From Prosopocoilus inquinatus (lineage: Eukaryota; Arthropoda; Insecta; Coleoptera; Lucanidae), in NCBI GenBank assembly GCA_036172665.1, contig CM069869.1:6712939-6776938 (forward strand): a DNA stretch of 64,000 bases, in the 5' to 3' direction. This document shows positions 5,840 through 64,000 of this stretch, one piece after another; position 1 is the stretch's first letter; the number at the start of each line of letters is the position of its first letter. The position numbers and the translations under genes are program-made. Under the pieces are notes generated by a model. It searched no databases. It was not told the origin of the DNA and saw only the letters and a list, made by a program, of their open reading frames with translations.

Positions 5840-8409
5840 TCAGACGGAGAACCATCGAGCAATTTCACTAAAGAAGCCCCCACTTGTTGAAGATCTAAAA
5901 GGCGGTCGGTATTCCCTCTCAGTCTTCGTCAAAAATTCTCTCTCCTGAACTAGGCGCTGCTCTTGGAAGAGATTTCTTATGTTTTGACCGTTCAACTCAA
6001 GCTCGTACAAATCCTGAACGGCGGAAATAACTTCCTCAGCGGTTACCGCCGCGATGATGTTCTCGCCTTTGCATTTGGAATCGCGCAAGGCTGCATCCAA
6101 AACATCGTTTTGTTCTTGGTAAACGCGGATCAGTTCGCGATAACATTCTATCTGTTTTTCATCAGCATTTTCACCGAGATTTTGGTGCCTGCAATAAAAT
6201 TTAATATACCGGCTGTTTCAAACCGAATGTGCACTGAAGGGATCTCCTGAACCATAAGAGATACAAATTCTATGAACTAAACATTGCCAATATGTATTAA
6301 ATAAAGGTTTAAAAAAATCTGTGTTATTTAAGCTTCAAATTAATATCAACTATTAAATGTGATACACTATTACAATCAGAAGAAAAAATGCTATCGAATA
6401 GAATAATGAAAAGATATACGTTGTAATTAAAAAATCGAAACTGATGGTGGTCGTAGAAAACGAAACGTTTGACTTCAATTCTACCACCCCTCTTCGAAGT
6501 AGAATAAAAAAGTGCCTGTAGAAAGCTAAATCAAAATATCAAAATTATTTATAACAAAAGAGATACAGATCAAAAAAGAAAATCGCATTAATATCTCAAG
6601 AAGAAATAAGAATAAAATCATTTTGTCAAGGGATATGAATAAAGCATTAATTCGTGCATTTAACCGAATTTATATCTCTTACGGTTTACGAGATCCCTTC
6701 AGTGCGTATTCAATTTGGATGAGTCGGTATGTGTATACCCGGCTAACACGCAGTTCTGCGGACGACATAAAATTACTTACTGGATGATGAGATATTCAAT
6801 GTATTCTTTATACTTGTCGTTACATACAGTGATCGCGTTGTTCTTCAAGAAGTGAGCAAATTTCGCCATCGATTTTTGAATGACGCATTTCTCATCTTCA
6901 TACTTCTTCTTTTTCTCTTCCAATTCTCTGATCGCCTCCCTTAAAGTATCCGCTATTTTTTCTTCGTGATCGATGTTTTTCCTCACACTGCTGTTTTCGA
7001 CTTTAACCGAAAGGATTTCAGTCTCGTAGTAGACACGCATGTGCTTTATATAGTGGTGAGTACAAAGTTTACAAAAGTTGCGAAACATCATGGCACAGTT
7101 CACTAGGTGATGATTTCCGACGCTATTTTCTTTCACTTCAGTCAGCTGACATGGATCGTGGCATACTGTCCCGTAATGGAAATATTGCTGTTGATTGTTC
7201 TGTAATTGTATGCGAATTTGTAGCATTTTACAAACAAATTGGACTAGAGCAAAACCTTAAAACTGCTGGAGCAACTGAGTTCGGTGCAGACGGTTCTTGC
7301 TCGATTCACATTTCTTTCTCTAACTTTCTTCGTGGTAAAGTACAGGTCTTTCTTCAAATCATCAACGGATTTCGTTTTGTCTTCGAGGTATTTCTTCCGG
7401 TTGTCTAGTAGCTGCAGGTTCTTCACGATGGCTTCCGTAATTTGGGCTAACGGCTCACTGAGCAAGAGAATTAGACGACGAGCTTCGTTAATGGAAACTG
7501 TATCCTGAATCTTGTGCGGCTCGGCGTTCACGACGTAATCCATAAATCTGGAAAGGAAAGAAAATCAAACGAGATGGTTTAAATTGTTAATTGGGAAATA
7601 AATAATTACGCCAAGCAAACTTCGGCGGATTTGTTCCAACTGAGGCCGAAATCTTCCTTCTCCTGTTCGGAGAACAATACGCCCTTATTGTTCGCCACCA
7701 GAAACCTAAACGCTTCGTTATCCATACAAAAAACGTTACCCTTGTGGAAAGGGATTTTCACATTAGGCGGATTAGATTCGATCTCCTCAAGGATCCTTTT
7801 CAATGGTTTCAGGGTATCACCAGGGCGATAGAAAGTACTGCGTGAATTCGTGAATAAGAAACAGATGTTTTCGCTGGCGCTTCTCTGTAAACGCGATAGC
7901 AATTGTTTCACGCAGTATTCGAACAGAATCGTCAGCCTGGCATTGTTGGGCTTGAGCATTATGCAGATGGCGTGTAAGTCTTTTAATTCCCCGATGACTT
8001 TCAGCATCTCATCGAAATTTTCCTCATCTTTCATTATACCTCGGGTATCACCTAATCCAGGGGTGTCTATCAGACGGATAACCGCGTTTCCGACCAGAAA
8101 CTTGTAGCTCCTTGCCGCTTGGGTCGCAGACGCTCCCACAATCGCCGATTCGTTTTCATCTTCTCCAAAAACTACCGGTATCTCCTCTAGGTCTTCGTTT
8201 GTCACAGTGAATCTGCATGGAATGAAAGACACGATTTTTTCTGCAGGCAGAGCATCGTCTAATGTCTTGAAAGACAGGTAGTTGACGAAAGCGTTAATGA
8301 AAGTTGATTTTCCCACTCCGGTTTCTCCGACCAGCAAAATGTTAAACTCCTTTGGAGGGTAAGGTTTTGGCTTTGGAGCCGGGTCAGGTATACGCGTAGG
8401 ATCCGACAT
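5840..8409 (-). CDS. AIG1/GIMAP-like P-loop GTPase, paralogue 2 (complete, 619 aa)
   Basis: Four exons on the minus strand: 7610-8409, 7256-7547, 6781-7199 and 5840-6188. All junctions are GT-AG and the frame is open throughout, giving 619 residues. P-loop GETGVGKST is at 28-36, the likely G2 Thr is in SATQA near 96, and DTPG is at 115-118. The G4 region reads LFTNSRSTFY. C354/C359, C377/C381 and CKLCTHH form a Cys/His cluster, followed by the coiled coil LEEKKKKYEDEK. The last exon is helical and ends in an aromatic tail (GGFFSEIARWFSV) that could touch membranes. A 5'UTR intron ends at 8581. A poly(A) signal is at complement 5808-5813, 27 bp after the stop. Paralogue 3 is its near-identical duplicate. 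Confidence 0.88.
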
Positions 8410-8582
8410 TTTATGGATTCTAAAACAATTATATATTTTAGTTACTTTTCGTTTTCAAGAGGTCGAGTCAGTTTTCTAAGAGAAACTGCACGTGCAAAAT
8501 TTTTCCTCAGAAAAACGGAATACCACCAGCAAAAGAAAACATTCCTTCAAAATATTAATTAAATCACACAAGAAAGTTTACC

Positions 8583-15384: not shown

Positions 15385-16020
15385 TTAAAAACGTTTCGTC
15401 TCGAAATGTTCCTGGTTATAGTCTTGAAGGAGGGTGTCGGAATCTACATGCTGGCCATTCTTGCAACTTCCAACTTGGTGGCTGCAGACTAGGACTTCAA
15501 TTCCCGTTCTGTGGAAGATGACTTCCAGCATGCTTCGAATTACTCTCCAGTCTAGTCCGTCTAATCCGCAGCCCAATTTGGAGATGGCTAACTTCATCTG
15601 ATGGTTCTCTATTAGCTGTCTCCTCAAGCTATATAGGGCTCTTCACATACTTTGATAATCATGTTTACCGCTTGATGTCTTCTTAGTGACTAAATAATGC
15701 ACCTGGCGCCTCCGATCTGCCGTCGAATCGATGATCTGCAGACTCTTGCCTACCACAGGATGCTGTCTTCGGAGCTCCTCGATTTGGCCAAATTTCTTCC
15801 TAAACACCTGAGCGATTCCTTTGGACATTTTCAGGTCTTCTGCTACGCAGTGGGCCAGACTGTACTCCAGTGGCACTTTAAAGAGATCTTGTTGCTTCTC
15901 CGTGGTCACTCCAAACCGTGCCTTACTTCCTTCGGCGTGATGAGACATGAAGGTTTCGAAGTTCACTTCGGAAACTTGCGCCCTTTGTACTGTCCCTTCA
16001 TCTGCTTCTCCATGGTAAGG
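15385..16020 (-). pseudogene. TARG1/OARD1-like macrodomain, copy A (CCCH finger lost)
   Basis: Follows the integrase GPY/F region. Readable core: DLFKVPLEYSLAHCVAEDLK, then MSKGIAQVFRKKFGQIEELR, YLVTKK and LGCGLDGLDW. In the TARG1 family the TKK lysine and the GLD aspartate form the catalytic pair, and both are kept. A TGA replaces a Trp codon after YQSM (near 15646), and a deletion near 15465 removed the start of the CCCH finger, leaving GSCKNG. Because CCCC became CCC at the end of IN, this domain is out of frame with pol here. Confidence 0.85.
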
Positions 16021-24035: not shown

Positions 24036-25021
24036 TGCGTTTGCACAGAAACAATTAAAACTTAAAAGTTTAAATTTCTCGAGAAATGTAAATGGAACGT
24101 CCTCTATATTTTAACATATTCGAATAGCTCGTGAAATTATGTTTCTAACAAATGCAACATGTATTGTTTTGAAGCTTACGGTTTTCGAGATATCTGCACT
24201 TACTGATAGAACTACTGGCAAGAACCATATTTCAAGAAAATAAACAAAAGAAAAGGGCACAATTACGTTTATCTGTTAAATCTCAAGGAAGTATTGATCC
24301 GAGAACTTAAGTTCACTATAAGAACTGCTTACAGCTGAAACTAACTAACTGCTGAAGTACTAACAAAGAAATTCGAAGTGTAATTTTGATTTAATGAAAC
24401 TTGAACTCCATCAAACCTTCAATTTATTTTCAACACCTAATAGACATCTTGGAAACTATTGAATATCTGCTAATCATTTCTAGCAATTTTTTTGAAAAAA
24501 TTGTCTTATTTTTTAATATCCAATCGTATTTGGTTGAATTAAAAAAAAGTAATACTAGGGACTAAAACATTTTCAATAACAAATAATTAGCGTTATATGT
24601 CGATTAGATGTTCGAAATAAATTGAAAATTTGATAGAGTTCGAGTTTTATTAAATGAAAATTACACTGAATTTCTTTGTTAGAACTTTTAGCAATTAGTT
24701 AATTTCAGCTGTAGGCAGTTCTTTTAGTGAACTTAAGTTCTTGGATTATTTATAAATGTCAATATTTCCTTGAGAATTAACAGATAAACCTAATTGTGCC
24801 CTTTTTTTTGTTTATTTTCTTGAAATATCGTTCTTGCCAGTAGTTCTATCAGTAAGTGCAGATATCTCGAAAACCGTAAGCTTCAGACCAATACATGTTG
24901 CATTTGTTAAAAGCAGCATTTAACGAGCTATTGGACTGTGTTAATATATACCTGGCGATCCATTTACATTTTTTGAGAAATTTAAACTATTAAGTTTCAA
25001 TTGTTTCTGTGCAAACGTGAT
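24036..25021. mobile_element. Foldback element of about 1 kb with long inverted arms
   Basis: The left arm from CGTTTGCACAGAAACAATT (about 24037) is mirrored by AATTGTTTCTGTGCAAACG ending near 25019. Similarity continues inward for over 400 bp (for example TATCTGCACTTACTGATAGA versus its complement). AGAACAACAT occurs directly outside on both sides (near 24015 and 25023) and may be a target duplication. It contains no coding sequence. Confidence 0.75.
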
Positions 25022-25035
25022 TAGAACAACATATA

Positions 25036-25729
25036 GAGAAATTCAAATTAGTTTTCGATAGGTTGAGAGAGGCAAATGTTAAACTAAAACCGAGTAAATG
25101 CCATTTTTTTTTAATGAAAGAAATTAAATACTTGGGGCACGTAATAACCACGGAAGGTATTAAACCCGATCCTGAAAAATTGGAGGCCGTGAAAGAGTTC
25201 CCAATTCCACGAAATGTCAAGGATGTGAGGGCATTTTTAGGATTAGTAGGTTGGTATAGACGGTTTATAAAACACTTTTCTAATATTGCTGAGACATTAA
25301 CCAATTTAACTAAAAAGGGAAGCACGTTTCAAATAGATAAAAAGGTTTTAGAAGCAATCTTTGAAATTGGAAATCACTAACGAAGAGTACTGTGTTATCC
25401 AAACTTTTCAGAGCCTTTCGTTTTAGCTACCGATGCCAGTGGTAGTGGGGTAGGCACCATACTTAGTCAAGTACGAGATGTATTCGGGAAGCCTATAGCG
25501 TTCGCAAGTCGTTAATTAAACAAAGCTGAGCGAACCTATAATGTTACTGAACGGGAATGTCTAGCTGTCATCTTTGGAATTAGACAATTTAGATGTTACC
25601 TGTATGGATGTAAATTTACCTTGGTTACCGATCACAGACCTTTAAAGTGGCTCCTGACGCTGAAAGATCCGCATTCGCGTTTGGCACGCTGGGCGTTGTT
25701 ACTATCCGAGTATGAATTCGAAATTGTAC
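25036..25729 (+). pseudogene. RT C-terminus and RNase H of the second gypsy element
   Basis: Reads HIEKFKLVFDRLREANVKLK, KYLGHVITTEGI and RAFLGLVGWYRRFI, all typical of the Ty3/gypsy RT thumb and connection. RNase H follows: VLATDASGSGVGTILSQV, NVTERECLAVIFGIRQF and VTDHRPLKWLLTLKD. At least one frame change and a stop (near 25378) break it. The catalytic YxDD box is not preserved. The coding sequence is cut at GTAC (25726-25729) by a transposon and resumes at 28370. Confidence 0.88.
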
Positions 25730-28369
25730 GGTGGTGTCGAAAAGTTTTAAGACGAAATGAAATACCCCTGGCCGTACGAATATCTGTGCTTTGCAATTAT
25801 GAACCTTAACAACATTTAGCCGGCTGACCTGCTTTTATGGTACGGCCGGCGGCAAGCCTAATAAATAAATATTGGTTACGGTTTCCAGTAATAATAACAG
25901 GTATCGTTGGTCCTATGACAATACACATACAATGGAATGATTATCTCTTTCGGTAGTATGTGTTCTGCGTTCCATGTCACAACGAAATTAAACAAAACTT
26001 TCCGACACAAGAAATTGTTCAATACTAAAAGATAATTAGTTCGCAGCTTCTTATACACAGAGAAAAATCAACAGTAAAAAGTAACACAAATTCAGAAGTA
26101 GTCAGAATAAAGACAGAAACACATTATAACAAATATTAACATAATTGTAGTAAATATTAGCACAATTGTGGTAAATAGTCCGACAATTGTGTGAATATTT
26201 GCTACAATTTGTTTCCCTCTTCATTGTAACTACAATTTGTGTTACTTTTTACTATTGATTTGTCTCTGTGTACCTACACACTAAATTGGGATAATACACG
26301 GTAGTACCGGAAATTTTCCAGAATACCAACATTTTACAAATGTAATAGGATGTAGAGGTATAAAAGCATTCCTGCGCAAGATAATTAAACAGGATTTAAA
26401 TATTAGAGACAATATTCTACTTAGTATTAATTTTCATTTTCTTATGAGATGTTTAAATTCCTCAATTTGTATTTAAATTCCCGGTTTTATGAACAGAAAT
26501 TTGAATCACTTTTAAGAATATTCTTTATCATACGTTTTCATGAATTAATTAATATAACGGTAAGGTCCGATTTCATAATAGGTCTTTAATTTTAAAGTTA
26601 TTTTAACCTAAAAAAAATACATTTGTTTCTCCATTCTTAAATTGACTTAGTCTGATTATGAAAACGGCCATAAGTCCAATTAAAAATTAATGTGTTATTA
26701 AAAATACTTTGTTACTCATTCGATTTATACAGAAAAAATAGGATAATAAAATAATTTTGGTTTATTTAACTCGTTTTGTTTGACACTGTATAATAGTTTG
26801 ATCTAAATTAGCGTTGTAAATTTTTAATTGCAACACTTAACTTAAATTTAAATTTAAATACATTCTGAACTTATGGCAGTTTAAAACATTTTGATTTAAT
26901 ATCTTTCAGTTTTGTTAACAATTTATGAAATGAATGAAATGAAAATCTAAATTGAATCTTAAAAGAAAAACAGAACGTAACAAAACCCGGGTAGGTATTA
27001 TTTTTATTAACATTAAACTAAAAACAATTAACAAACTGTTACCGTTCAATTTCTGTCCGACCCCGAATCACCCTGTATATTGTTCCCCGTGAAATTATTT
27101 TCACAGACCGCCCGGCGAATTCTTTGCGCTCCGTCGATTTGCTTTCAAAGCATTTCCCCGTGTTATTCGTTTTCCTGTAAAAATTAGGATAAGGAAAAGT
27201 TTGGGTTGCGAAAGTTAAATTCTCCGGTCGCATAGATTCTTATTTAGCCTTTTTGATTTACGCATTATTGCATCATATTGTGAAATCAGTGATTCCTTTC
27301 CCACGTTAGCTACACAAAAATTGAACCCTGGTCTTTAAGCCCATTGGTCCTCGTTGACGTAAGATTCTGTCACGGTTGGCGGAGGCACACTATCTCTTCT
27401 TGTTTTAACCCCATCTCTTTCCGTTTGCCGGTGCGAAGCGATTTTGTCAGAACAGAATGATTCTCGTTCTTCTCGGTGTAACAACCCGTTTCGTGTCGTT
27501 GTGCTTTCCTTTGTGTACGTTTTCGCCCAAAAATTGATGGTGGGTGAAGGCAATAACAGCTTTTCTTGGCTGATTATATCCCGTTACACGTGAAGAGTTA
27601 TAATACCTTCGTATTGTCTACGCCTGTTCCCTTCCAAGCAGTTCTGCGAACAGGCTTTAGTTAAGGGGTTTCCTCACCTCGGTGCCGCTTTCGGCAAGAG
27701 CGTCTGATTTTGTTGGCCATTCCCCGCTTCGGCACGGTCTCGTGAGTCCCGGCGGACACCTTGGAGCTGATCAACACTCCGACCGACGTGCGACACGCGC
27801 AGGGATAAGGTTGGCCTGTTTATTATTTTATTTTACGCTACCGGAAAACGGCATGTAGCTTCACACTGCGTTGTGATACGTTTTGAAGTTGCTGACTGCT
27901 ATCTTTTTTTTGCGCACCGTTCCGGTTAGTTTATTAAGTTTATTAGTTTGGTGTTTACATTTTAAGCGCGGTTGCGGCTTTTATTAGAGCTTAGATATTT
28001 TGTTTTGTTTATCGATTTTTGACTCAGTTTTAATGTCAACTTTATTATTTGTTTTGTGTGAATAAAACTGTATTGAAAACGTATCTTGGATGAGACGTGG
28101 ATACCTGTACAGGTACGTAGCAAAACTTAACATGACTTCACAAAATATAACTATATACCTGAATTAATTTTATTAATAATTACTGTCATAATACATTACA
28201 AATTATGCAGTTCTCATTACCTGGAACTTCCTTAGTCAATGAATGAATTTTATGACCCTGCTCATCCCCTGGTCAAGAGAGGGAGAGAGAAACTGGGAGG
28301 CTCGAATGCAGAAGGTTCTAAATTCAGACAGATTTACTGCTTTTCGTCTTAAAAGTTTTCGACAGTAGT
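25730..28369. mobile_element. 2.64-kb TIR element with 4-bp duplication (GTAC)
   Basis: Inserted in RNase H: GTAC occurs at 25726-25729 and 28370-28373. The left end (GGTGGTGTCGAAAAGTTTTA) matches the complement of the right end (ACTACTGTCGAAAACTTTTA) at 24 of 29 positions over the full TIR. No transposase was recognised. The interior is AT-rich except for a GC-richer part at about 27300-27900. Near 28060 is GAATAAAACTGTATTG, so an LTR or mRNA-like insert may be nested inside. A 4-bp duplication occurs in several superfamilies, so the family is left open. Confidence 0.75.
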
Positions 28370-28848
28370 GTACATAGGGCTGGCGAAAAGCACGGAAATA
28401 TTGACGCCTTAAGTAGGGCTTATAACTATGCTTCGAATTTCGAAGGATTTTTAAATTACCCTGACCAAAATAAAATCGAAAGCGATGATGTAACGGATGA
28501 AGTAGGTAATATATTTTCCGTTATTGGCCAAAGCTCACTCGCTCACACTGTATCTAAAGATTTGTGTATGAGCAGGGGAATAGCAAAAGAATTTAAGGCA
28601 CAATTTGCTTCGGTTAACGAACTTCTAAATGGAAATAAAAATGTAGGGGATGTGGGCGTTTTGAGAATGATCGATTTCAATGTGTATTATTTGATAACTA
28701 AAGGTCGGTGTTACAATAAACTTACTTATCAAACTCTTTGGAATGCCCTTCAGGCATTAAAAAAGTGTTGCTTGTAACTTAAAGATTACCATATAGCGAT
28801 GCCTCGAATTGGTTATGGACTAGATAAATTAGAATAGGAAATCGTAGT
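28370..28848 (+). pseudogene. RNase H tail fused to TARG1/OARD1-like macrodomain
   Basis: One frame, open from 28370 to 28777, reads HRAGEKHGNIDALSRA (the conserved end of gypsy RNase H). After about 40 residues it continues as a macrodomain: SSLAHTVSKDLCMSRGIAKE, YYLITKGR and, after a stop, AMPRIGYGLDKLE. The TKG lysine and the GLD aspartate correspond to the catalytic pair of the TARG1 type; the usual GCGLD is GYGLD here. Stops after KKCCL and after DKLE show decay. The domain is cut by the Sailor-like element and finishes near 30970, directly before the integrase. Confidence 0.85.
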
Positions 28849-28850
28849 TA

Positions 28851-30923
28851 TAGTTTGGCCAACGCTATTTGGATAATACGGTCGTTAAAACGAATTTACT
28901 TTACGATAGGTTTGGCAGGTAAGGCTGTAAAATTATTAAGCTGTGGAAGTATAAAAATGCGATTACTACGTTCGTCGTATAGTAGCCGTATTCAAGAAAT
29001 TTGTTAGGGCCACAGCTCTTCTAGGTAATGTTAAATTCAAGCAAATGGTACTTATACGCTTTGGCGAAATTAGCGCTTTCACCTTAATGCGCGGGTTATT
29101 TGTAATTCCTTGGAAGTATTAAATATCTATATTTGATTGCTGTTTGCTATATAAATATATTTCCATTAAGAATAACCTCAGTAATAAACTTCATTCTGAA
29201 GTGAACATCATTATTCAACTAGTCTTGTGTTTAGTCGTATAAGTGCTGAAATAAAAAGATGTGGTGTCCTTGGGATCACTGTGATAGTGATAATATGGAA
29301 ATTCATGAAGAGGAGATATTACAAGATGAACTTCCCGTCTCAGAGGATAATCATAGAGGAAATAGTAGTGCTCGACAGAACCTTCATTTACGAGTAGAAG
29401 CTAAATGTATCGTTTTGAATGTATTTAAGTATCTGAGAGATACTGAAAACGGCAAAGCTACTATAAAAAAAAAAACATCTCAAATGACAGGTGTTCCTTG
29501 CACTTCTGTATGGAGAATTCTTAATGAAGACATTCATTATAGGAAAAACTAGGCTTGATAAAGGTGTTCTTCGTAGCTTAGTTATTGAGAAGCATGCTCA
29601 TGTATTGAGAATATTTATTTCTGACATGTACAAAGCAAAATTGATACCAACTCTAAGAGGTTTACAGGAAAAAATTCACTGGGCATTCACTGCGCAGAAG
29701 AGACCATAAGATCATTTTTACGGAAGATTGGCTTTACCTACAGTACGATAAATAAAAGACAGGTTATTAAGGAATCTCCGAAAATAAGCGAGTGGCGGTA
29801 TAATTATTTAAAGGAAGTGAAGAGACTTCGAGATGAAGGGAAAACGTTTTATTTTCTCGATGAAACGTGGTTTGATAGCCACGATGTATTGAAAAAAAGT
29901 TGGACAGACCATTCAGAAAGATGCAGATTCGATGTTCCAGTCTCAAAAGGAAAACGAATTATTATTCTGCATACGGGATCGGAATACGGTTGGGTGCCGA
30001 ATGGATTACTATTATCAGCTAAAAATATCTCAGATGCGAAATTCGATTACCATGAAGACATGACGGGAGTTCTTTTCTATAAATGGTTTAAGGACAGTTT
30101 CATTCCAAATATTGTTCCCAACAGTGTTATAATTATGGACAACGCAAGCTACCATTCTATACAAAATGAAAAAATACCTTGCTCTAACTCTAGAAAAGGT
30201 GAAATTATGGAATTTCTATATGAAAAGGATATATTTTTTGAAGAAAATTATACAAGAAAACAACTTTTAGAAATTGTTAAGGCTTTTACGTTCAAAAAAG
30301 ATTATGCAATCGATACTTTGGCTAAGGAATATGGACATCAAGTTATCAGACTACCTCCATATCACTGCATTTTAAATCCTATAGAATTGATTTGGGCCAA
30401 CTTGAAATGTAATATAAGAAAAAATAACAAAAATCCTCAATTTAGTAATGGAGTACTTGAATTAATAAAAGAGGAAGTTGCAGAAATGTGGGCCAAGTGT
30501 ATTCAACACGTACTAAAAGTAGAAGACAACTACCGATCAGAATTTGTTGAAGACTTCATAATACATTTAGTACCGAAGATAGTGAGAATGAAATGAGTGA
30601 AACGTAAAAATATAAAATTGTTATTGAATTTGTTATAACTGTTTGTATATATTGTGCTTGAAATTAAATTATGTAGGTACTCTATGAAAATTACATTTGT
30701 TTTTAATTTCATTTAATATTGCCTTTATATCTATAAATCTAATTCATAGTTCTTAATATCTGAATAATTTAAGAAATTACATCGTAAAATTTAAAGTACG
30801 GATCTGCAAGTTTCTGTTAGCGCGTGCCGCATTTACTGCAGGGGGTGCTTCTGGTGCCATAAACGACCCTTAAAGTGAACTAGTCCTAACGACCGTATAT
30901 TCCAAATAACGTTGGACAAACTA
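28851..30923 (+). mobile_element. Sailor-like (IS630-Tc1-mariner) transposon, 2.07 kb
   Basis: Flanked by TA (28849-28850 and 30924-30925). TIRs: TAGTTTGGCCAACGCTATTT at the left against TAGTTTGTCCAACGTTATTT (complement of the right end), continuing through TACGGTCGTT. The transposase at 29259-30596 has about 81 residues between the second Asp and the Glu, which fits the DD82E/Sailor group rather than mariner or Tc1. It is inserted in the macrodomain of the gypsy element. Confidence 0.85.
29259..30596 (+). pseudogene. Sailor-like DDE transposase (frameshifted)
   Basis: The N-terminal part (from ATG 29259) carries a helix-turn-helix-like segment (TSQMTGVPCTSVWRILNE). Frames change near 29549 and 29709. 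The catalytic part, 29817-30596, is open: FLDETWFDSHDV (first Asp), VIIMDNASYHS (second Asp) and PPYHCILNPIELIW (Glu). Spacing D2 to E is 81 residues. The element is probably inactive, but damage is limited to a few frameshifts. Confidence 0.85.
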
Positions 30924-30925
30924 TA

Positions 30926-32537
30926 ACATACTAGTAGTAGTTTTCTAATATACATCTGTAAAAATTCGTATCTTCAGGTTACCCAACGAATCCGAGCAAA
31001 AGGAACTAATGGTAAGTACTATAAAGGCAGAACCCTCGGAACCACCCTTCATACCAATATGGAATAGGGATAAAATTAAAGCTGAGCAGGCAAAAGATCC
31101 CTTCTGTCTAAATATTGTTGAAACATTACGGGAAAATCAAGAAAATTTTGGATTTTATTTAGATTTAGACGAGTTGTTATACAAAAACAATGACAATGAT
31201 GGGCGAGATTTGTTAGTGATTCCTAAAAGCTACGTCAAAAAATTAATACATGATTTTCGTGATTTACCTTTAGCTGGACATCAGGGACAATCAAAAACCT
31301 TGGCTTTACTTAAAATTAGATTCTATTGGCCCAACATGAAAAATGATACAGTTCAATACTGTTCTAATTGTCATTCTTGTAATTTGAGAAAAACATCACT
31401 ACATTTAAAACGAGCTCCTTTACGAAATTTTAAAGAAATATCTTATCTTTTCGAACGACCGGCAATGGATATTGTGGGTGCATTAGTAAATTCCTATAAA
31501 CGTAATAAGTATATTTTAACGTTCCAAGACTATTTTACCAGATATATTGAATTAATACCTCTCCCCGATCAAAAAGCTGACTCTGTGGCTAGAGCTTTTG
31601 CCGCTTACATTGTTGCACGTCATGGAACTCCAAAACAACTGTTAAATGATCAAGGTGCAAACTTTTTATCAAAATTGTTTAAATCTGTTTGTGAAATTTT
31701 CGGAGTGTAAAAATTACAGACCACGCCCTATCACCCCCAGATTAATGGAATGTTTGAGCGTAGTCATAGAGTTATTAAAGACATTTTATTACACTATATT
31801 GCGAACAGTCAAGAAGACTGAGACGGTTGGTTACCTTATACTCAAATGGCATATAATTTTAGCACACACAGTTCCACATGGCATAGCCCTTAGTTTCTAT
31901 TACATGGTAGAGATCCTGTTTTACCTTTTGAAGACGTTTTAATAGCTAAACCGAGCTTTTACCCAGCTACAAGAAAATTTACGACAGTTAGTCGAACGGA
32001 GCGATATAATAAAAAGGCTAAGGAGAAATTATTTGAATTAGGTGATTTAGTGTATTTACATGACGAAAGCGTTCAGATAGGATTATCGCGCAAAATGGTT
32101 AAACCATGGGCAGGACCATATCGCGTTATGGAAGTTAAATGACCCGTTACTTATAAAATTAGAGCGTTAAATTCCCGTGAAGACTTGACAGTACATGTAA
32201 ATTGGTTAAAACCTTGTTATAAATTTAGTTATCGCGAAAGCTTAGATCACCACCCACAAGTTGACAATGATGCAAGCGATGAAGACAACGAAACCCGCTC
32301 AATTATGTATGGTAACGATGTCTTAAAGGCAACCTTAGATATCGCCAGAGGCATAGATAGTGGATTAATTCCGCACCAATACAATAAGCAAAGAAATTAC
32401 ATTCCTACGAACAAGTGGAAGCTATACCACAGGTCAATGCGCCAGAAAATGAACCTAATTGTTTGGGCACAGAATTCAGAGATGGAGTTAGAAGGTCTTG
32501 GAGACTAAGAAGGCCTCCAAGAAGATTTGACTGTTAA
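30926..32537 (+). pseudogene. Macrodomain end and integrase of the second gypsy element
   Basis: The first about 45 bp finish the macrodomain (EIVV resumes after the TA). Then integrase: zinc-binding H/H and CSNCHSC near 31275-31380, the first Asp in AMDIVGAL and the second in LNDQGANFLS; the Glu region (PQINGMFERSHRV) is out of frame after a TAA at 31708. The GPY/F-like WAGPYRVMEV and a tail rich in Arg (RRSWRLRRPPRRFDC) end at 32537. The frame 31009-31710 is the longest intact piece. Catalytically dead because of frameshifts and stops. Confidence 0.87.
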
Positions 32538-32880: not shown

Positions 32881-33456
32881 ATGAAAGCTATAACGGATCT
32901 GTTGTTTTTGGCACTTCAGTGTAGTGCAGTGTTTACTCTTATTGCCTATGACTGTAAGGATAAGGACATGAATATCTCCGTGATTTCCCTAAAGGATATT
33001 GAACCATGCCCTGTAGAAGAAAATGCCTACAATAGCGATAGGTCTTAAGTACACATTCTGCAAGGCAACAGTGTTAAATTAAAGCACGTTCACACCTGTC
33101 TAATAGAATTCTCGAGAATCATATCACCTTGTGGCATGCACAGTCATAATTCTGCTGTATCCGGTGGATTATCAAGTTACATCCAACCATTGGGAGCTGA
33201 AGAATGTAGAAACGCATATCGGTATCAAACCATACGGATTCATCGACCTACCTACGATTGGCAAATTACGTTTTAATGGCACAACATCTGTCTCAATTAC
33301 GCTAGAGGGTGAGCTGAAAGTTGATGGAACCTGTAGAGGAATATGTTACACTGAAGATGAACATTCTTGGTCCGACGTCATCGTTTATGCAGCAGTCAAA
33401 AACCTGTTAAAAGATTATTTAGCCCCGGTCAACTTAGAGAGTAATGAGATAAGCCT
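32881..33456 (+). pseudogene. Env-like glycoprotein, N-terminal part (chuvirus-type)
   Basis: Starts MKAITDLLFLALQCSAVFTL, a plausible signal peptide. A stop after NSDRS (33046) and frame changes follow. Conserved-looking Cys motifs appear (PCGMHSHNSAVSGG; CRGICYTEDEHSW) that fit the chuvirus-type glycoprotein family captured by arthropod retroelements. That assignment is from pattern recognition of the Cys/His motif. The frame before the solo LTR is interrupted but still readable. The gene is decayed and not functional. Confidence 0.65.
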
Positions 33457-34773
33457 TGTGACGATATGTATATATTTAGGTTGGCACTTTGTTGTAGTTT
33501 CATTTTTGCCGTTTGGCACCACTTCTTTCTTCCTCCCTTCCCTTGCGCTTTTATTTGAATGATAAGGTGCTCTTTACCGTCTCTTCTGTGTTGGCCTCTC
33601 GGCGAGTTAAGTACGAAGTTATTTACCGATTCCGAGTGTTTATTGTGTTTGAGGAACCTGTTTGTTCCATTTTTGATTTGCTCGCCGATTGTATCGTTTT
33701 CGATTTTCGCATTTCGCAATTTTGTAAGAGGTAACTTGAAATTTTGTGTTTTTCCGGAAGAAGTCGAATTAGTTTCGGTAAGTCGTTTTTTTGTTATTAT
33801 GTTTCCTAATTTATTTCGTTGTTGTTTCTTCTTTAGGCTTCTTTTTCTTTTGGTACTTTTTCTTCTCTTCCGGATGCATTTCCCCGACCGGCCTCCAACG
33901 ATAATTTTGGTCTGGTATTACGGTCATCAATCCTCCCTGACGGTTTCAGCACCAACCTCTCCGCCTGCTTCTCATAGGACAGTTTTTACGATTCAGGAGA
34001 TTGGTAATAGCCGCTGTTGAAGCCCTCCGTCAAGTCCACTTTATTTCTCGTTGTTTTTGTATCGAGAAAGATAAGAACAGGACAACAAGGAAGGTACATG
34101 CGATCCATTTCCGAGAGAATCTTGTCGTCGTCAAGCTTTGGTGAGAGATCAGATCACGATAATTTTTCAAACCACTTTGTCGGGATTTGCCCTTTTTTTT
34201 TGTCTCTTTGAATTTACTCTAATTTGTGCCGCGGTATTTCAAAGAAAGTTGAATTAAGTTAAATTTTTAGTCTGTATTTAAAAGTACGTGTAAAGTTTCG
34301 TGGAATTCCACCAGGCTATAATTATTTTACTGTTTTGCTATCATTTAGTTGAATTACGTGACGCATTTCAAGACCTTTTGATCTTTCGCCTGCCTGAGCA
34401 ACGTCCCATTTATTATTTTGTGTTACACGCCGCTAATAAATTAGTTCTCTGGTCGATATGCAGTTTCTTTGCACTCTTTTGCTTCTGTGCTTCAATTACG
34501 ATTTTTTTCGGACATTTCTATTCCGGTCCGTCGAGGGACCACACGAGGCATACTTTTAGTTTGGTTCTTGGCTGCGGGGATTTCCTCGACTGGCGCCCAT
34601 TTCCGGTAACTTCCGTGTCACCCACGAAAACCGCTCTCCGCTTTTCTTTTTCTGTTGCGAGCAAGCCGGAGCCAAGAGTCGTCCGTCCGTTTTTTTTGTC
34701 ATCATCTTCCGAGCACGGATTCTGCTGTCTTGCAAGATTTTTGAATCAGCAGGTAAGTACTTGTGACGTAACA
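33457..34773. mobile_element. Solo LTR, 1.3 kb, inserted in the env-like gene
   Basis: Begins TGTGACGATATG and ends CTTGTGACGTAACA, that is TG...CA, with the 4-bp duplication GCCT at 33453-33456 and 34774-34777. The env reading frame is not shifted by it. It contains splice-like motifs (TTTCGGTAAGTC near 33775, CAGCAGGTAAGTA near 34748) and pyrimidine-rich tracts. The parent family is not otherwise present in the window. No coding sequence is supported. Confidence 0.75.
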
Positions 34774-36107
34774 GCCTCATAGGTGGAATCGTTTGCCCTT
34801 ATTTGAATGGTTACTGCGTAGACTCTACATTTGGAGAAACAATGTGGGAACCTTACCAAGATACTGTTTGTGATCACGACTTAAGTACATTGTACAAATT
34901 TTGGTTGTAGAACAGGGAGACAAAGTGTTTGCCCTTTCGTTAGTAAAAACTATTCGCGTGTGTGGTATCAAGGTTTGGTTAACCGAACACCCGAAAATTT
35001 TAGTACTGGAAAAAACAATAGAGCAGCTTATGGGACAAATGGGACTACTACCACAGAATACGGAGTTACCCGCCTATATTAACAGTAAACTTTTGTACAT
35101 CGAACAAGCGTATAAAACATCGTTAGATGTGTTATACGCTGATACTGTTTATCGAAGGTGTTTGCTCGTCTGGGGCCCTTAGCCTCTGACAACTTTGGCG
35201 CTGTAATTAAACAGAAATTGGGTTATGTAGGTCGGGTCCTAGGTGAAGTAATTTATCTTATGCAATGTAGGCCAAAGTTAGTCCAAATTAGAAGGACCGA
35301 TTATTGTTTTATGTAGATAATGAAACCCTTTTTATGACCCCTCTAACGCATGTAATCCAAGACCATGCTGAACAAATAGACTGCAATGTAGTGACTCCGC
35401 CACTGTATTACGTCGACAACGAGTGGATTGGTTTAACTCCTTATCCAGTAACTAAGAAAGCGCCCATCCAGTTAGAAGTTGACGAAGAAGAGAAGTTAAA
35501 ATTTGATTCCGTACAATCTCTAAGAGCAGCGGGCCTATACACCAGGCAGGAAATTTATATTGTTCAAAGAATTTTAACATTCGGAATTGAAAGAAAGGCT
35601 GTTGGAACTATTCTAAATAGAAAGTTATTAGGAAAAGATACCGACACTCAAGGTTTCTCTGCCCAACACACTTTTGATGCAGAGGAGATGGAAAATTTAG
35701 CGAAATCAATCTTGCAATATGTTTAAGGATGGTTTACTGATATAGGGATGTTCACGAGTGGACTTATAGGATTTTTCATTGTATTCAAAATTCTTGTGTA
35801 CTGCGCAGAAGTACTTATTAATGCTTTCTCTACGTATCGAACCGTAGGATGTGGACCAGCTTTATTAGCTAGCTTGTGGGGTACGATGGCCCTGTGGATT
35901 GTTCATCGTTATCAGGATATTTCTAGAAAAGACGGAACGGAGGCAGAGTGTACATCTATCCAGATAGTGAATACTGAACCTCCCAACGTACGACTTACCA
36001 CGGAAAAATCAGCTATTAATGACCGTGTTCAGGAAAGGAACGCGTCCTCAGCTCACTTGTATCCAGGTTTACAACACTGCACAGAAATAAACCGTGAAGT
36101 TCAGTAA
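34774..36107 (+). pseudogene. Env-like glycoprotein, C-terminal part with membrane anchor
   Basis: Continues after the solo LTR. Recognisable stretches include VCGIKVWLTEHPKILVLEKT (from about 34955), a cysteine pattern around RRCLLVWGP, and a long open frame 35304-35726 ending in a region before the membrane. Frame 35748-36107 has a hydrophobic anchor (GLIGFFIVFKILVYCAEVLI) and a cytoplasmic tail. Frameshifts at about 35180 and 35290 and a stop at 35724 break it. Together with 32881-33456 it makes one decayed class of envelope glycoprotein. Confidence 0.65.
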
Positions 36108-41590: not shown

Positions 41591-43661
41591 TCAGACGGAG
41601 AACCATCGAGCAATTTCACTAAAGAAGCCCCCACTTGTTGAAGATCTAACAGGCGGTCTGTATACCCTCTCAGTCTTCGTCAAAAATTCTCTCTCCTGAA
41701 CTAGGCGCTGCTCTTCGAAGAGATTTCTTATGTTTTGACCGATCAACTCAAGCTTGTACAAATCCTGAACGGTGGAAATAACGTCCTCAGCGCTTACCGC
41801 CGCGATGATGTTCTCGCCTTTGCATTTGGAATCGCGCAAGGCTGCATCCAAAACATCGTTTTGTTCTTGGTAAACGCGTATCAGTTCGCGATAACTTTCT
41901 ATCTGTTTTTCGTCAGCATTTTCACCGAGACCTTGCTGCCTGCAATAAAATTTAATATACCGGCTGTTTCAAACCGAAGGTGCACTGAAGGGATCTCCTA
42001 AACCATAAGAGATACAACTGATGGTGGTCGTGAAAAGACGGAACGCTTGACTTCAACTGTACCACCCCTATTCGAAGTACAATCAAAAAGTGCCAGTAGA
42101 AAGTTAAATCAAAATATCAAAATTATTTGTAATAAAAGAGATACAGATCAAAAAAGAAAATCGCATTAATATCTCAAGAAGAAATAAGAATAAAATCATT
42201 TTGTCAAGGGATATGAATAAGGCATTGATTCGTGCATTTAACCGAATTTATATCTCTTACGGTTTAGGAGATCCCTTCAGTGCGCATTCAATTTGGATCA
42301 GCCGGTATATGTATACCCGGTTAACATGCAGTTCTGCGGACGACATAAAATTACTTACTGGTTGATGAGAAATTCAATGTATTCTTTATACTTGTCGTTA
42401 CATAAAGTGATCGCGTTGTTCTTCAAGAAGTGGGCAAATTTCGCCATCGATTTTTGAATGACGCATTTCTCATCTTCATACTTCTTCTTTTTCTCTTCCA
42501 ATTCTCTGATCGCCTCCCTTAAAGTATCCGCTATTTTTTCTTCGTGATCGATGTTTTTCCTCACACTGCTGTTTTCGACTTTAACCGAAAGGATTTCAGT
42601 CTCGTAGTAGATAGGCATGTGTTTCGTATTGTCTTCGAGGTATTTCTTCCGGTTATCTAGTAGCTGCAGGTTTTTCACGATAGCTTCCGTAATTTGGGCT
42701 AACGGCTCACTGAGCATGAGAATTAGACGACGAACTTCGTTAATGGAAACTGTATCCTGAATCTTGTGCGGCTCGGCGTTCACGACGTAATCCATAAATC
42801 TGGAAAGGAAAGAAAATCAAACGAGATGGTTTAAATTGTTAATTGGGAAATAAATAATTACGCCAAGCAAACTTCGGCGGATTTGTTCCAACTGAGGCCG
42901 AAATCTTCTTTCTCCTGTTCGGAGAACAATACGCCCTGATTGTTCGCCACCAGAAACCTAAACGCTTCGTTATCCATACAAAAAACGTTACCCTTGTGTA
43001 AAGGGATTTTCACATTAGGCGGATTAGATTCGATCTCCTCAAGGATCCTTTTCAATGGTTTCAGGGTATCACCAGGGTGATAGAAAGTACTGCGTGAATT
43101 CGTGAATAAGAAACAGATGTTTCCGCTGGCGCTTCTCTGTAAACGCGATAGCAATTGCTTCACGCAGTATTCGAACAGAGTCGTCAGGCTGGCATTGTTG
43201 GGTTTGAGCATTATGCAGATGGCGTGTAAGTCTTTTAATTCCCCGATGACTTTCAGCATCTCATCGAAATTTTCCTCATCTTTCATTATACCTCGGATAT
43301 CACCGAATCCAGGGGTGTCTATTAGACGGATTACCGCGTTTCCGACCAGAAACTTGTAGCTCCTTGCCGCTTGGGTCGCAGACGCTCCCACAATCGCCGA
43401 TTCGTTTTCATCTTCTCCAAAAACTACCAGTGTCTTCTCTAGGTCTTCGTTTGTCACAGTGAATCTGCATGGAATGAAAGACACGATTTTTTCTGCAGAC
43501 AGAGCATCGTCTAATGTCTTGAAAGATAGGTAGTTGACGAAAGCGTTAATGAAAGTTGATTTTCCCACTCCGGTTTCTCCAACCAGCAAAATGTTAAACT
43601 CCTTCGGAGGGTCAGGTTTTGGCTTTGGAGCCGGATCAGGTGTAGGCGTAGGATCCGACAT
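41591..43661 (-). CDS. AIG1/GIMAP-like P-loop GTPase, paralogue 3 lacking the Cys/His module (529 aa)
   Basis: Three exons on the minus strand: 42862-43661, 42359-42799 and 41591-41939; the frame is open to the stop. It is the duplicate of gene 2, but exons 2 and 3 of that gene are joined by an in-frame deletion: KYLEDNTKHMPIYYETE replaces about 90 residues. This removes intron 2, the CxxxxC pair and the whole Cys/His cluster, but leaves the GTPase domain, the coiled coil (LEEKKKKYEDEK) and the C-terminal exon with WFSV tail. A 5'UTR intron (43673-43834) and a poly(A) signal (complement 41559-41564) are kept, so it may be expressed as a shortened isoform-like protein. Function unknown. Confidence 0.85.
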
Positions 43662-43835
43662 TTTATGGATTCTAAAACAATTATATATTTTAGTTACTTT
43701 TCGATTTTCAAGAGGTCGAGTCAGTTTCCTAAGAGAAACTGCACGTGCAAAATTTTTCCTCAGAAAAACGAAATACCACCAGTAAAAGAAAACATTCCTT
43801 CAAAATATTAATTAAATCACACAAGAAAGTTTACC

Positions 43836-48952: not shown

Positions 48953-50432
48953 TTTAATTGCAATCAGTGTGGCAAACAATTTACGCGAATCGATAATATG
49001 AATCGTCATTTGCGTACATCATGCCAGGGAAAACGCTTGAAATTAGATGAAATTTCCGGACCGTCCAAAGTTGTTGACCCAGTGAACGTTACGAAATGTG
49101 ATGTGGTTTGAACTCGAAGAAGGCAACTAAATATTTACTGTATCTTGATGCTAAAAACCTGTACGGTCACGCAATGTGTTCCAGATTTCCGTGGGGAGAA
49201 TTTACTTGGTTATGTACAGAAGAGATTAACAATCTTAACATTTCAGAGTTAGAAAAAAATTTAGATGTCGGGTACATATTCGAAGTAGATTTGGAATACC
49301 CGACTCATTTACATGACAACCACAACGAATTACCATTTTGTCCGGAAAACATAATTCCACGAAATTCCAAACATGGTAAACTTATTCCAAATCTATACAA
49401 CAAGAGGAAATACATAATCCACTATTTAAATCTGAAACAATGTTTGGAAAATGGTTTAATATTAAACCAAATTCATAGGGCAATTAAATTTAAGCAATCT
49501 CGTTGGCTGAAAATATACATAGACTTTAATTCACAAAAACGAGCTGAAGCTAAAAACGAATTCGAAAATTTTTTTTACAAATTATTAAATAATAGTGTTG
49601 TCGGTAAAACTATGGAAAATGTTGAGAATCGCGTCGACATTAAATTAGCCACCAGCTGGGAAACCCATAATCGAAGACCGGGAGCTGAATCATTGATAGC
49701 TAAACCAAACTATAAATCGAGTAAAATTTTTAGTGATCACCTGGCCGCAATAGAATTATCCAAAGTGCAAGTAAATTATAACAAACCTTTATACGTAGGG
49801 TTTTGTGTTTTGGAAATATCAAAAACAGTAATGTACGATTTTTATTACAATTTTATAAAGCGAAAATATAACAACAGAGCAGCTTTATTATATACTATAT
49901 ATAGTATAGTTTAATACTGACCGTTAAAACTGACAATGTATACGATGACATAAAGCAAAATTTAGATAAATTTGATACTTCAAATTACCCACTGAATAAT
50001 ATACATGAAATGCCTCGAACTGAATCAGTTATTGGACGATTTAAAAACGAATACGCAGGACAGATCATAGAATCTTTTATCGGGACCGGTGCGAAAGCTT
50101 ACTGTGTAAAGCTTATTTCAAAATGTACTAAGAAAGCAAAAGGTGTTAAAAAATACGTTGTAGATAAATACTTAACTGTAGATGACTACAAAGAAATCAT
50201 TGAACGAGATGGTTTTATTTTTAAAAAGATGTACGTGTTTCACTTGGATTTTCATACGGTGTATACAGAGTTGAAAAATAAAATTGCCTTACCATCAAAA
50301 GACGATAAACGTTATATTTTGGATGACAAAATTCATACTCTGGCATGGGGTCACCATAAAATTGCTGATATGGAAAGAGATAAAAAACTAAAAGAACTAA
50401 TTGAAAAATTGGAAAAAGAATTAAAAAATTAA
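48953..50432 (+). pseudogene. Polinton/Maverick-type protein-primed DNA polymerase B relic
   Basis: Begins with a C2HC finger (CNQCGKQFTRIDNMNRH). After a stop near 49111 the polymerase palm reads YLLYLDAKNLYGHAM (from about 49138), so the part between is deleted. The frame runs to 49914, where the expected catalytic Asp box is replaced by an AT-rich palindrome (TATACTATATATAGTATA) that also shifts frame. The C-terminal part (50010-50432) holds SKCTKKAKGVKKYVV, DDKRYILDDK and TLAWGHHK, typical of the end of this polymerase. Dead copy. Confidence 0.75.
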
Positions 50433-55662: not shown

Positions 55663-56242
55663 GTGAACTTCGAAACCTTTATGTCTCATCACGCCGAAGG
55701 AAGCAAGGCAAGGTTTGGAGTGACCACGGAGAAGCAACAAGATCTCTTTAAAGTGCCACTGGAGTACAGTTTGGCCCACTGCGTAGCAGAAGACCTGAAA
55801 ATGTCCAAAGGAATCGCTCAGGTGTTTAGGAAGAAATTTGGCCAAATCGAGGAGCTCCGAAGACAGCATCCCGTGGTAGGCAAGAGTCTGCAGATCATCG
55901 ATTCGACGGCAGATCGGAGGCGCCACGTGCATTATTTAGTCACGAAGAAGACATCAAGCTATAAACCTGACTATCAAAGTATGTGGAGAGCCCTGTATAG
56001 CCTGAGGAGACAGCTAATAGAGAACCACCAGATTGGGCTGCGGATTGGACGGACTAGACTGGAGAGTAATTCGAAGCATGCTGGAAGTCGTCTTCCACAG
56101 AACGGGAATTGAAGTCCTAGTCAGCAGCCACTACCCACAGGCAACAGTCAGCAACAGCAAAACCGTGGACTGCTACTTCTTCCAGACGGGAAGTTGCAGG
56201 AATGGACCGGCATGTAGATTCCGACATCCTCCTTCAAGACTA
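55663..56242 (+). pseudogene. TARG1/OARD1-like macrodomain plus CCCH finger, copy B
   Basis: DLFKVPLEYSLAHCVAEDLK, MSKGIAQVFRKK and HYLVTKK are intact to 56030. A deletion of about 22 bp then removes the strand before GCGLDGLDW (readable from 56033 in another frame). The CCCH finger CYFFQTGSCRNGPACRFRH is complete (CX7CX5CX3H, 56168-56226). Relative to IN it is out of frame because of the CCCC to CCC change. Confidence 0.87.
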
Positions 56243-56273
56243 TCACCAGGAACATTTCGAGACGAAACGTTTT

Positions 56274-56287
56274 TAAGAAAGGGGAAG
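56274..56287 (+). promoter_or_regulatory. Polypurine tract, copy B
   Basis: AAGAAAGGGGAAG directly precedes the 3' LTR, the plus-strand primer position. Confidence 0.6.
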
Positions 56288-57418
56288 TGTGGCGCGTCAC
56301 TCAGCTCACTACGTCACACTGAAGGGGTCAAGAAGTCGGGCCGTTATTATGCGTCATCGGCCGCCGGGCTGTCTATGCCGAACAAACTCGACTTTTCCAG
56401 AATCTTCGAAGATGGAACATAGGCGCCGGATTTTGCAAATATTGTCGGGTGCAATTTTTGTCGGTATCTAGTACAGTTTATAATGTGTGTAATATAACTT
56501 ATTCATAATTTAAAAGAGAACTGCCTTATGAATAAATACAACTGCCGACGGAGTCCTAGTTAAGAACTCAATAACAAAGTGACAAATATATGAAATAAAT
56601 GACAAGGTTATGAGTTCTGAATTTTTAATAATTACGATAATTTAATTAAGGGCTTCTTTTTTCCATTTGCGTGGCATTGAAAACGATTCTTAAGACGAAC
56701 ATATAGTCTTTAATAATAATTTGTTACACAAGTCCTGACTAATCAAATTAGATTGTGAACCACTATCAAGAAGTGCTCTACACATTTGAGGTCAACCTGA
56801 AGAATGTATTTCAATAAGATAATAAAATAAGTATTAAAATTGTCTTACCAATTTACTTTAGTGTCAGCGAGGAGGAAAGAAAAGTTTTTCCTGATCCCCC
56901 TGCTTAGTATTTTGACAATATTTTACAGGACACTGTGTTTTATACCAACATAATGCAACAGGTGGTGGTTTTTTGATTTGTGAACAAATAATACACTAAT
57001 AGCGTTTTCTACTGACTTACATTCTATGCACTGAGTGTGCACTAAGAGTATATCCAACTCACTTTATTACATGAGGTTAGAAAAAGATGGAGATACAGTG
57101 AGTACGCACACACGCAGTGCACGTCAGTAAACGCTATAAGTATGCTGTATTCCTGCTTTGGACGATGAATCTGGAAGAGCTAGCAATATTTTAAACAATT
57201 TGTAAATTTCTGGTAATCCTGTTAATGATAGATTTTCTTTAAAAAACTGTATTCTTTGAATTCATTAAATAAAAGGAGACTACCATGACACTACTTTGTC
57301 GGGTGCTCTCTAATACTTTTGCACCCAACAAAATCATTTGTCGGGTGCACGAGGCCCCTGCACCCAACGAAGCGGCGCCTATGAGATGGAACAAACAAGA
57401 AGGCAGCGTAAAATATTG
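56288..57418 (+). repeat. 3' LTR of copy B, split by insertion
   Basis: 56288-56417 and 57394-57418 are LTR; the rest is the hAT-type insertion. The remaining part was to the right of copy C and is not in the window. It differs from the 5' LTR of the same copy at many sites. Confidence 0.8.
56418..57385. mobile_element. hAT-type non-autonomous element, 968 bp
   Basis: AGATGGAA occurs at 56410-56417 and 57386-57393 (8-bp duplication), with TIRs CATAGGCGCCG and CGGCGCCTATG. Repeated subterminal GGGTGCA or TGCACCC motifs near both ends are typical of transposase sites. There is no transposase in it; short frames only. Confidence 0.88.
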
Positions 57419-62740: not shown

Positions 62741-63451
62741 TGAAACGGATCAACGACGTCGTTTACCGCATCAGGAAGGTCCCCCATGGCAAACCCAAAG
62801 TAATCCACTTCAACCGGATAGCCCCTTACCATGGAGAAGCAGATGAAGGGACAGTACAAAGGGCGCAAGTTTCGGAAGTGAACTTCGAAACCTTCATGTC
62901 TCATCACGCCGAAGGAAGCAAGGCACGGTTTGGAGTGACCACGGAGAAGCAACAAGATCTCTTTAAAGTGCCACTGGAGTACAGTCTGGCCCACTGCGTA
63001 GCAGAAGACCTGAAAATGTCCAAAGGAATCGCTCAGGTGTTTAGGAAGAAATTTGGCCAAATCGAGGAGCTACGAAGACAGCATCCCATGGTAGGCAAGA
63101 GCTTGCAGATCATTGATTCGACGGCAGATCGGAGGCGCCACGTGCATTATTTAGTCACTAAGAAGACATCAAGCGGTAAACCTGACTATCAAAGTATATA
63201 GCCTGAGGAGACAGCTAATAGAGAACCATCAGATGAAGTTAGCCATACCCAAATTCGGCTGCGGATTGGACGGACTAGACTGGAGAGTAATTCGAAGCAT
63301 GCTGGAAGTCATCTTCCACAGAACGATAATTGAAGTCCTAGTCTGCAGCCACCACCCACAGGCAACAGTCAGCAACAGCAAAACCGTAGACTGTTACTTC
63401 TTCCAGGCGGGAAGTTGCAAGAATGGGCCAGCATGTAGATTCCGACACCCT
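62737..63451 (+). pseudogene. TARG1/OARD1-like macrodomain plus CCCH finger, copy C
   Basis: GPY/F end (VIHFNRIAPYHGEADEG) and macrodomain are in one frame here, with CCCC intact, indicating the original fusion. Macrodomain: DLFKVPLEYSLAHCVAEDLK, MSKGIAQVFRKK, YLVTKK; a 14-bp loss near 63197 shifts frame before the last third (FGCGLDGLDW, 63251 onward). The Lys of TKK and the Asp of GLD are present, so the ADP-ribose hydrolase site looks preserved. The CCCH finger at 63389-63448 (CYFFQAGSCKNGPACRFRH) is intact. LINE sequence begins right after. Confidence 0.88.
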
Positions 63452-63453
63452 CC

Positions 63454-64000
63454 TTATTGCGATATTTTTCGAACTATTTCCCCCCCAAATACTTCTGAAA
63501 CAGGAGGAATAGATGGTGTATCGTCTTTTATTATAACAAAAATCCTCACCTTTTATAAGCGAAGTATTGTCCTATCTTATTAATTTGTCTTTTCAGTAAG
63601 GAGTGTTTCCTTCGAAACCGAAGATAGCCATTATCCAACCCTTACCTAAAGGGGTAAAAGTAATTAATCTTTTTGAAAATTATCGTCCGATAAGTATTTT
63701 GACAACTTTTAGTCAAACTTATGAGAGTATTATAAATAAAAAACTCTGTCTTTATTTTACACAATTTTCATTATTGTTTTCATCTAATCAACGTGGTTTT
63801 ACACAAAATAAATCAACTGATACTGCCTGATATGTATTTTTGAAGCACATCTATAATGATTTAGACAGTGGTAAAAAAAATTTCATAGACTTATCTAAGG
63901 ATTTGGATTGTGTTAGTCATAATATATTACTCCGTAAATTAAAACGTTATGGGATTAACGGTGTAGCTCATCTTTGGTTTAAATCATATCTTTCGAATCG
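63454..64000 (+). pseudogene. Non-LTR retrotransposon (LINE) fragment, second copy
   Basis: Starts at TTATTGCGATATTTTTCG, identical to the LINE at about 3906, immediately after the CCCH coding part of copy C (joint at CCTCCTT). The frame 63603-63830 reads ENYRPISILTTFSQTYESII and NKSTDTA, RT motifs. Frameshifted after that; continues past the window end. Confidence 0.8.

Follow-up and report, generated by a model that had tools for sequence, protein, structure and literature searches.

The window analysed here is a stretch of 64,000 nucleotides from the lucanid beetle Prosopocoilus inquinatus (contig CM069869.1 of assembly GCA_036172665.1), and all coordinates are positions within it. The feature under study, referred to as lineage 2, lies on the plus strand and begins with the C-terminal part of a reverse transcriptase (RT, 25021-25380), which is adjoined upstream by a palindromic insertion with two arms of ~310 bp (24038-25017). 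Five relatives were used as tblastn queries, and none matched an RT upstream of 25021 apart from P0126, whose match starts at 24913. No protease belonging to this copy itself was found. The first part of RNase H (25489-25728, with one stop) matches residues 500-579 of P0124, a protein of Leptinotarsa decemlineata, and is split at ~25728/28370 from the RNase H end VHRAGEKHGNIDALSRA (28370-28420) by a probable DNA transposon. This insertion (25729-28369) carries inverted repeats of 23 bases with one mismatch (25735-25757 and 28342-28364) and, by eye, a GTAC duplication; no transposase was identified in it. The open frame that links the RNase H end to the macrodomain, placed at 28370-28777 by the first-pass annotation, is indeed present and spans 28322-28777.

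The main part of the macrodomain, with equivalents of Lys84 and Asp125 and two in-frame stops, occupies 28478-28846. It had been thought to end at 28848, which did not hold, as a Tc1-like transposon at 28851-30923 (inverted repeats, TA duplication by eye, and a DDE_3 transposase frame at 29625-30593) interrupts the domain, whose C-terminal end resumes at ~30926-31000. This last piece, with one stop, was placed by alignment with P0124; human TARG1 alone gave no match to it by tblastn. The proposed position of the macrodomain directly before the integrase stood, with the integrase start moved from about 30975 to ~31036; the integrase (H2C2, rve core and p58-like C-terminus, with frame breaks) runs from 31036 to 32220. 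Aligned to the window pieces, P0124 joins at residues 579/579 and 738/740, and the breaks in lineage 2 are thus explained by the insertions. With its stops and frame breaks, the window copy is defective.

Downstream of Pol and on the same strand are two pieces that match PF24664, the Monjiviricetes fusion glycoprotein: the N-terminal part of an envelope-like gene, with breaks (32881-33559), and a later part (35292-36104, PF24664 positions 405-652). Judged by order and strand, both are taken as belonging to the lineage 2 element, and they supply the envelope gene downstream of Pol by which an errantivirus-like element or endogenous retrovirus is recognised. We take PF24664 to be of the chuvirus type, and the gene is an apparent second capture, from a negative-strand RNA virus. 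The RT-RNase H-integrase order of the window copy is that of Ty3/Gypsy Pol, and a protease lies ahead of RT in the relative P0125 and in the host loci L014 and L047, giving the order PR-RT-RH-IN. No chromodomain, the mark of a chromovirus, turned up when the lineage 2 integrase pieces and P0124 were scanned with Pfam. The feature is probably what is left of a Ty3/Gypsy-type element that carried env and had a Pol of the order RT-RNase H-macrodomain-integrase.

Three further copies in the window (A, B and C), here lineage 1, carry the macrodomain after the integrase: copy A on the minus strand (15619-15882), and copies B (55747-56010) and C (62962-63198) on the plus strand. A scan of copies B and C only found a CCCH zinc finger after the macrodomain in each (56021-56419 and 63155-63580, respectively); such a finger is also among the precomputed Pfam domains of the relative P0017. 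As had been remarked from the sequence, RT, RNase H and integrase of lineage 2 are unlike those of copies A-C, with identities of 44-45%, 54-56% and 35-43%, respectively. The window also holds three similar GTPase frames (MMR_HSR1/AIG1-like) on the minus strand at 1088-1921, 7606-8454 and 42858-43799, which form a small local family, and frames at 49102-50432 that resemble a Polinton-type DNA polymerase B, with no Pfam match.

The assignment of the lineage 2 domain to the TARG1 (OARD1/C6orf130) class of macrodomains, made originally from the motifs YYLITKGR and GYGLDKL, was confirmed by sequence and by predicted fold, both nearest to TARG1 among solved macrodomains. Searched against the PDB, the last 98 codons of the window frame match human TARG1/C6orf130 (2l8r, E 1.2e-17), and tblastn with TARG1 gives 44% identity over 123 residues of 28478-28846, through the two in-frame stops. 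The Lys84 equivalent lies in YYLITKGR and the Asp125 equivalent in GYGLD. Pfam-A gave no match to the window frame with the macrodomain, and none came from a comparison of the 151-residue frame with proteins of similar length (10 candidates). A profile built from seven element macrodomains matches TARG1 with an E of 6e-53, and the model predicted for the P0124 macrodomain (pLDDT 79.7) superimposes on TARG1 (4j5s) with a TM-score of 0.95 on the target and an rmsd of 1.3.

A region so full of insertions, with the macrodomain itself interrupted, could have brought a host TARG1 fragment or a piece of another element beside a retroelement by nested insertion. We regard such a chance juxtaposition as very nearly negligible, because P0124 has the same order in a single frame (RNase H 509-593, macrodomain 623-~770, integrase 781-997), aligns across the breaks of the window copy, and has a counterpart in P0131 (Gonioctena quinquepunctata), in which the macrodomain C-terminus stands by eye just before the integrase, so that the macrodomain-integrase junction is common to both. 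The match of P0131 to the macrodomain end piece of the window is weak. The gene model behind P0124 is named tropomodulin isoform X2 and fuses tropomodulin exons to the Gypsy Pol fragment. RNase H-macrodomain-integrase is a real Pol order, and a nested-insertion accident is rejected for lineage 2.

Relatives of the lineage 2 integrase vary in whether they carry the domain. An X-padded query of the integrase piece returned 32 matches (E <= 0.001) from 5.8 billion proteins, and the two best, P0122 (57% identity) and P0123 (52%), pass from RNase H to integrase without a macrodomain, which is also absent from P0126. In P0125 a decayed macrodomain follows RNase H and precedes the integrase; it scores 42.2 by hhalign, and none of 40 shuffles exceeds 22.8. 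A further hhalign search, for remnants in other parts of relatives that have a decayed macrodomain or none, covered 10 segments of P0122, P0123, P0125-P0128, P0025 and P0033; its top score, 18.5 in P0126, falls within the shuffle range. Because three relatives are without the domain and in a fourth it is decayed, the macrodomain is inessential to replication. The integrase tree joins the window copy to P0122 and P0123 as their sister (97/92) and groups P0124, P0131 and P0125 (100/99). Within the lineage 2 clade this pattern fits a single gain followed by loss and decay, or else two separate gains; the refuting outcome named in the first-pass annotation, one insertion with later deletion, is thus compatible with lineage 2 considered by itself. 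Scans of viral contigs with the integrase piece, P0146, P0134 and A1 found no confirmed relative.

The segment between RNase H and integrase might also be a structural linker, in which an enzyme captured long ago was later retained for its fold alone. The macro-like segment of P0125, whose ligand-binding loops seem to be deleted, would suit such a history, as would P0146, in which the RNase H-integrase segment scores 30.1 against 16.2 when shuffled, and whose predicted structure, of low confidence, finds TARG1-class chains among the best matches. The P0146 signal, however, is lost when it is aligned with P0134 or P0148, a direct comparison of P0125 with P0146 gives no match (17.4), P0122 and P0123 join RNase H to integrase with no such domain at all, and the copies in the window, P0124 and P0131 have kept the active-site motifs, so that we think a linker quite unlikely. 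P0134 and P0148 themselves are unsupported as decayed macrodomains, the former scoring below its shuffles and the latter 20.3 against 19.3.

The two window lineages do place the same type of enzyme at different points of Pol, as the first-pass annotation proposed, and the position after the integrase, like that between RNase H and integrase, recurs elsewhere. Among the best 120 of 7919 matches listed for lineage 1 (E <= 0.001), 20 carry a macrodomain after the integrase, and in a first integrase tree these 20, the window row and four macro-less rows form one clade (support 100). In a later integrase tree that included 13 of the 20, the clade of this family, C1, is supported at 100/100 inside a larger group, the nine other sampled members of which are macro-less. 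No macrodomain was detected in four members of the C1 clade, of which P0012, P0023 and P0094 extend no further than the integrase end and P0008 has a different tail. Three Gypsy Pol records, P0006, P0014 and P0041, are filed under Klebsiella pneumoniae, Erysiphe pulchra and a Rickettsia endosymbiont, and are possibly arthropod contamination.

A third position emerged from the host genome (650 Mb, 173 contigs), in which a search with Pfam Macro gave 39 matches, 19 of them within open frames of 1575-1953 codons. All but two matches, of L006/L007, were examined as 37 loci; the PF01661 matches L006/L007 and L008/L050 were rejected as TARG1-type, having no TARG1-type match. The macrodomain was found ahead of the other Pol domains at 27 of the 37 loci and after the integrase at six; three (L027, L037 and L040) have no clear order, and the remaining one, L050, lacks a TARG1-type match. 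Of the 27 macro-first loci, 26 contain a recognised RT and L032 showed RNase H and integrase only. At the edge of L027 lies a further macrodomain, of the lineage 1 type. Pfam scans of pieces of three before-RT loci, from families N1, N3 and N4, located a protease ahead of the macrodomain in N1 (L014) and N3 (L047) and none in the N4 pieces (L033). Four families thus carry the macrodomain before RT (N1-N4) and two after the integrase (C1 and C2), and macro-bearing Ty3/Gypsy Pol families come from the host genome, from beetles and from unnamed sequences. Across families there are three Pol positions: PR-macrodomain-RT, RNase H-macrodomain-integrase and integrase-macrodomain.

Three positions require at least three placement events. 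The first-pass annotation had looked to trees of RT, integrase and macrodomain to separate independent capture from a single insertion. The families are deeply apart in the RT and integrase trees, with macro-less lineages in between, and on the macrodomain tree none of seven AU-tested groupings was rejected (C1 with C2, p 0.0515; the others, 0.152-0.353). L027 was dropped from the integrase tree because its RT and integrase are those of a C2 element and its row label is C1. The macrodomain tree covers 13 of 36 genome macrodomains, with human TARG1 as the only animal cellular sequence; the truncated P0003 and two pieces of window copy B were dropped, and P0125 is in no macrodomain tree. Within it C1, C2, N4, N3 and N1+N2 are each supported by bootstraps of 97-100 and lineage 2 by 86/79, and relations between families are weakly supported.

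One ancient capture, by a Ty3/Gypsy ancestor whose descendants relocated the domain and many times lost it, is a serious contender, though we hold it at somewhat less than even odds, and it is compatible with the function proposed below. In the best tree the element macrodomains do group apart from human TARG1 (89/79, not starred), and groupings that follow the integrase tree are not rejected by the AU tests. On the other hand, the integrase tree has macro-less lineages separating C1 from C2 and surrounding lineage 2, a single clade of C1 and C2 macrodomains comes near rejection (the p-AU given above), and each position still needs its own placement event. Exchange by recombination also occurs, given the mosaic pattern of N1 (L014, L021) and N2 (L038, L041), which share 95-97% nucleotide identity in RT and 73-74% in the macrodomain, with integrases 97% identical in one pair and 83% in another. 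The enzyme may have come to each family either by recapture from the host or by transfer between elements.

The idea that recurrent use reflects a selected function gained support from low dN/dS in diverged macrodomains and from near-invariant catalytic residues. The residues were counted in a set with many near-identical copies, from which P0125, P0131 and the truncated rows are absent: 56 of 57 rows have Lys84, and 54 of 56 have Asp125, whose column one row lacks. P0018 has lost both residues and P0019 Asp125. For diverged macrodomain copies, dN/dS is 0.15 and 0.13 in two comparisons of N1 with N2, and 0.17 and 0.21 in two comparisons within N4. Closer copies, in six pairs with few changes, give 0.19-0.81, and two pairs of N1/N2 with N4 are saturated and yield no value. 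In these families dN/dS is lower for RT and integrase (0.00-0.27), and the macrodomain thus evolves faster than the core enzymes.

Taken together, the sequence points to an active ADP-ribosyl hydrolase that would counter host ADP-ribosylation, and we give the joint reading, of an env-bearing Ty3/Gypsy-type remnant whose macrodomain had this activity, a probability of about 0.6. The macrodomain would travel with Gag-Pol and act as a mono-ADP-ribosyl hydrolase, removing the ADP-ribose that host PARPs attach to the element's proteins, to the termini of RNA or cDNA, or to chromatin where integration takes place. An activity independent of neighbouring domains would account for its free placement in Pol. 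Passages of PMC7050489 give mono-ADP-ribosylated proteins and ADPr at nucleic-acid ends as TARG1 substrates, and passages of PMC9411070 describe the reversal of thymidine-linked ADP-ribosylation by TARG1, DarG and SCO6735; between them, these passages name acidic residues, the ends of nucleic acids and DNA-linked thymidine as the sites that TARG1 frees of ADP-ribose.

Alternatively, the macrodomain could be a reader of ADP-ribose that guides the pre-integration complex to ADP-ribosylated chromatin, catalysis being incidental, a role like the proposed reading of histone marks by the chromodomain of chromoviral integrases. In favour of a reader are the macrodomain's place after the integrase in C1 and C2, with a CCCH zinc finger following it in window copies B and C, and its place before the integrase in lineage 2. 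We nonetheless consider a reader unlikely, as the counted rows keep Lys84 and Asp125 beyond the need of binding alone, and in four families the macrodomain lies ahead of RT, away from the integrase.

Returning to the hydrolase, the presence of the enzyme in three places in different families suggests a repeated advantage to the elements. A broader and tentative proposal, which we would rate as rather improbable in its full form, is that restriction by host ADP-ribosylation has led invertebrate Ty3/Gypsy elements to take up TARG1-type hydrolases repeatedly, at three places in Pol, and that the RNase H-integrase segment of a wider Gypsy group, P0146 and its kin, descends in decayed form from such a capture. 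Were this so, the conflict over ADP-ribosylation would be old and widespread in invertebrate retroelements. The positions, the active-site conservation and the low dN/dS values suggest that invertebrate retroelements are under a pressure from host ADP-ribosylation that has been little recognised.

No macrodomain in a Ty3/Gypsy element appeared among the literature matches listed, which came from open-licence papers only and are weak evidence. The nearest cellular relative, the ALC1-like hydrolase TARG1/OARD1/C6orf130, shares sequence family, predicted fold and the catalytic Lys and Asp; it differs in being a stand-alone protein of ~152 residues, whereas the element form is a module of retroelement Pol. 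The macrodomain of P0124 also matches 157 phage records, 92 of them named Escherichia (one listed phage match is annotated as a phosphatase). Phage TARG1-like proteins and DarG are likewise ALC1-like macrodomains on mobile elements or their hosts, but are stand-alone genes or toxin-antitoxin partners outside Pol. The macrodomains of alphaviruses and coronaviruses, which are of the MacroD type and thought to counter host ADP-ribosylation, already make this fold known as a counter-defence enzyme of RNA viruses; they share the macro fold, with alphavirus chains among the structure matches, and belong to another macrodomain class and another kind of element. Chromoviruses, themselves Ty3/Gypsy, resemble C1 and C2 in having an extra domain fused to Pol after the integrase, but the chromodomain is a reader in one fixed position and the macrodomain an enzyme fold in three.

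A parallel in placement is the retroviral dUTPase, a captured cellular housekeeping enzyme found at varied polyprotein positions (Pol or Pro) and, in some lentiviruses, between RNase H and integrase. It too is a housekeeping enzyme that was captured and is free in its position; enzyme and substrate are different. According to a passage of PMC4977317 that cites Basta et al. 2009, some fish endogenous retroviruses encode macro-domain proteins in extra reading frames. As far as that passage describes them, they share with the beetle elements a retroelement having taken up a macrodomain protein, and differ in being vertebrate and in carrying it as a separate extra frame, whereas the beetle case is a TARG1-type domain within Ty3/Gypsy Pol, at three positions.
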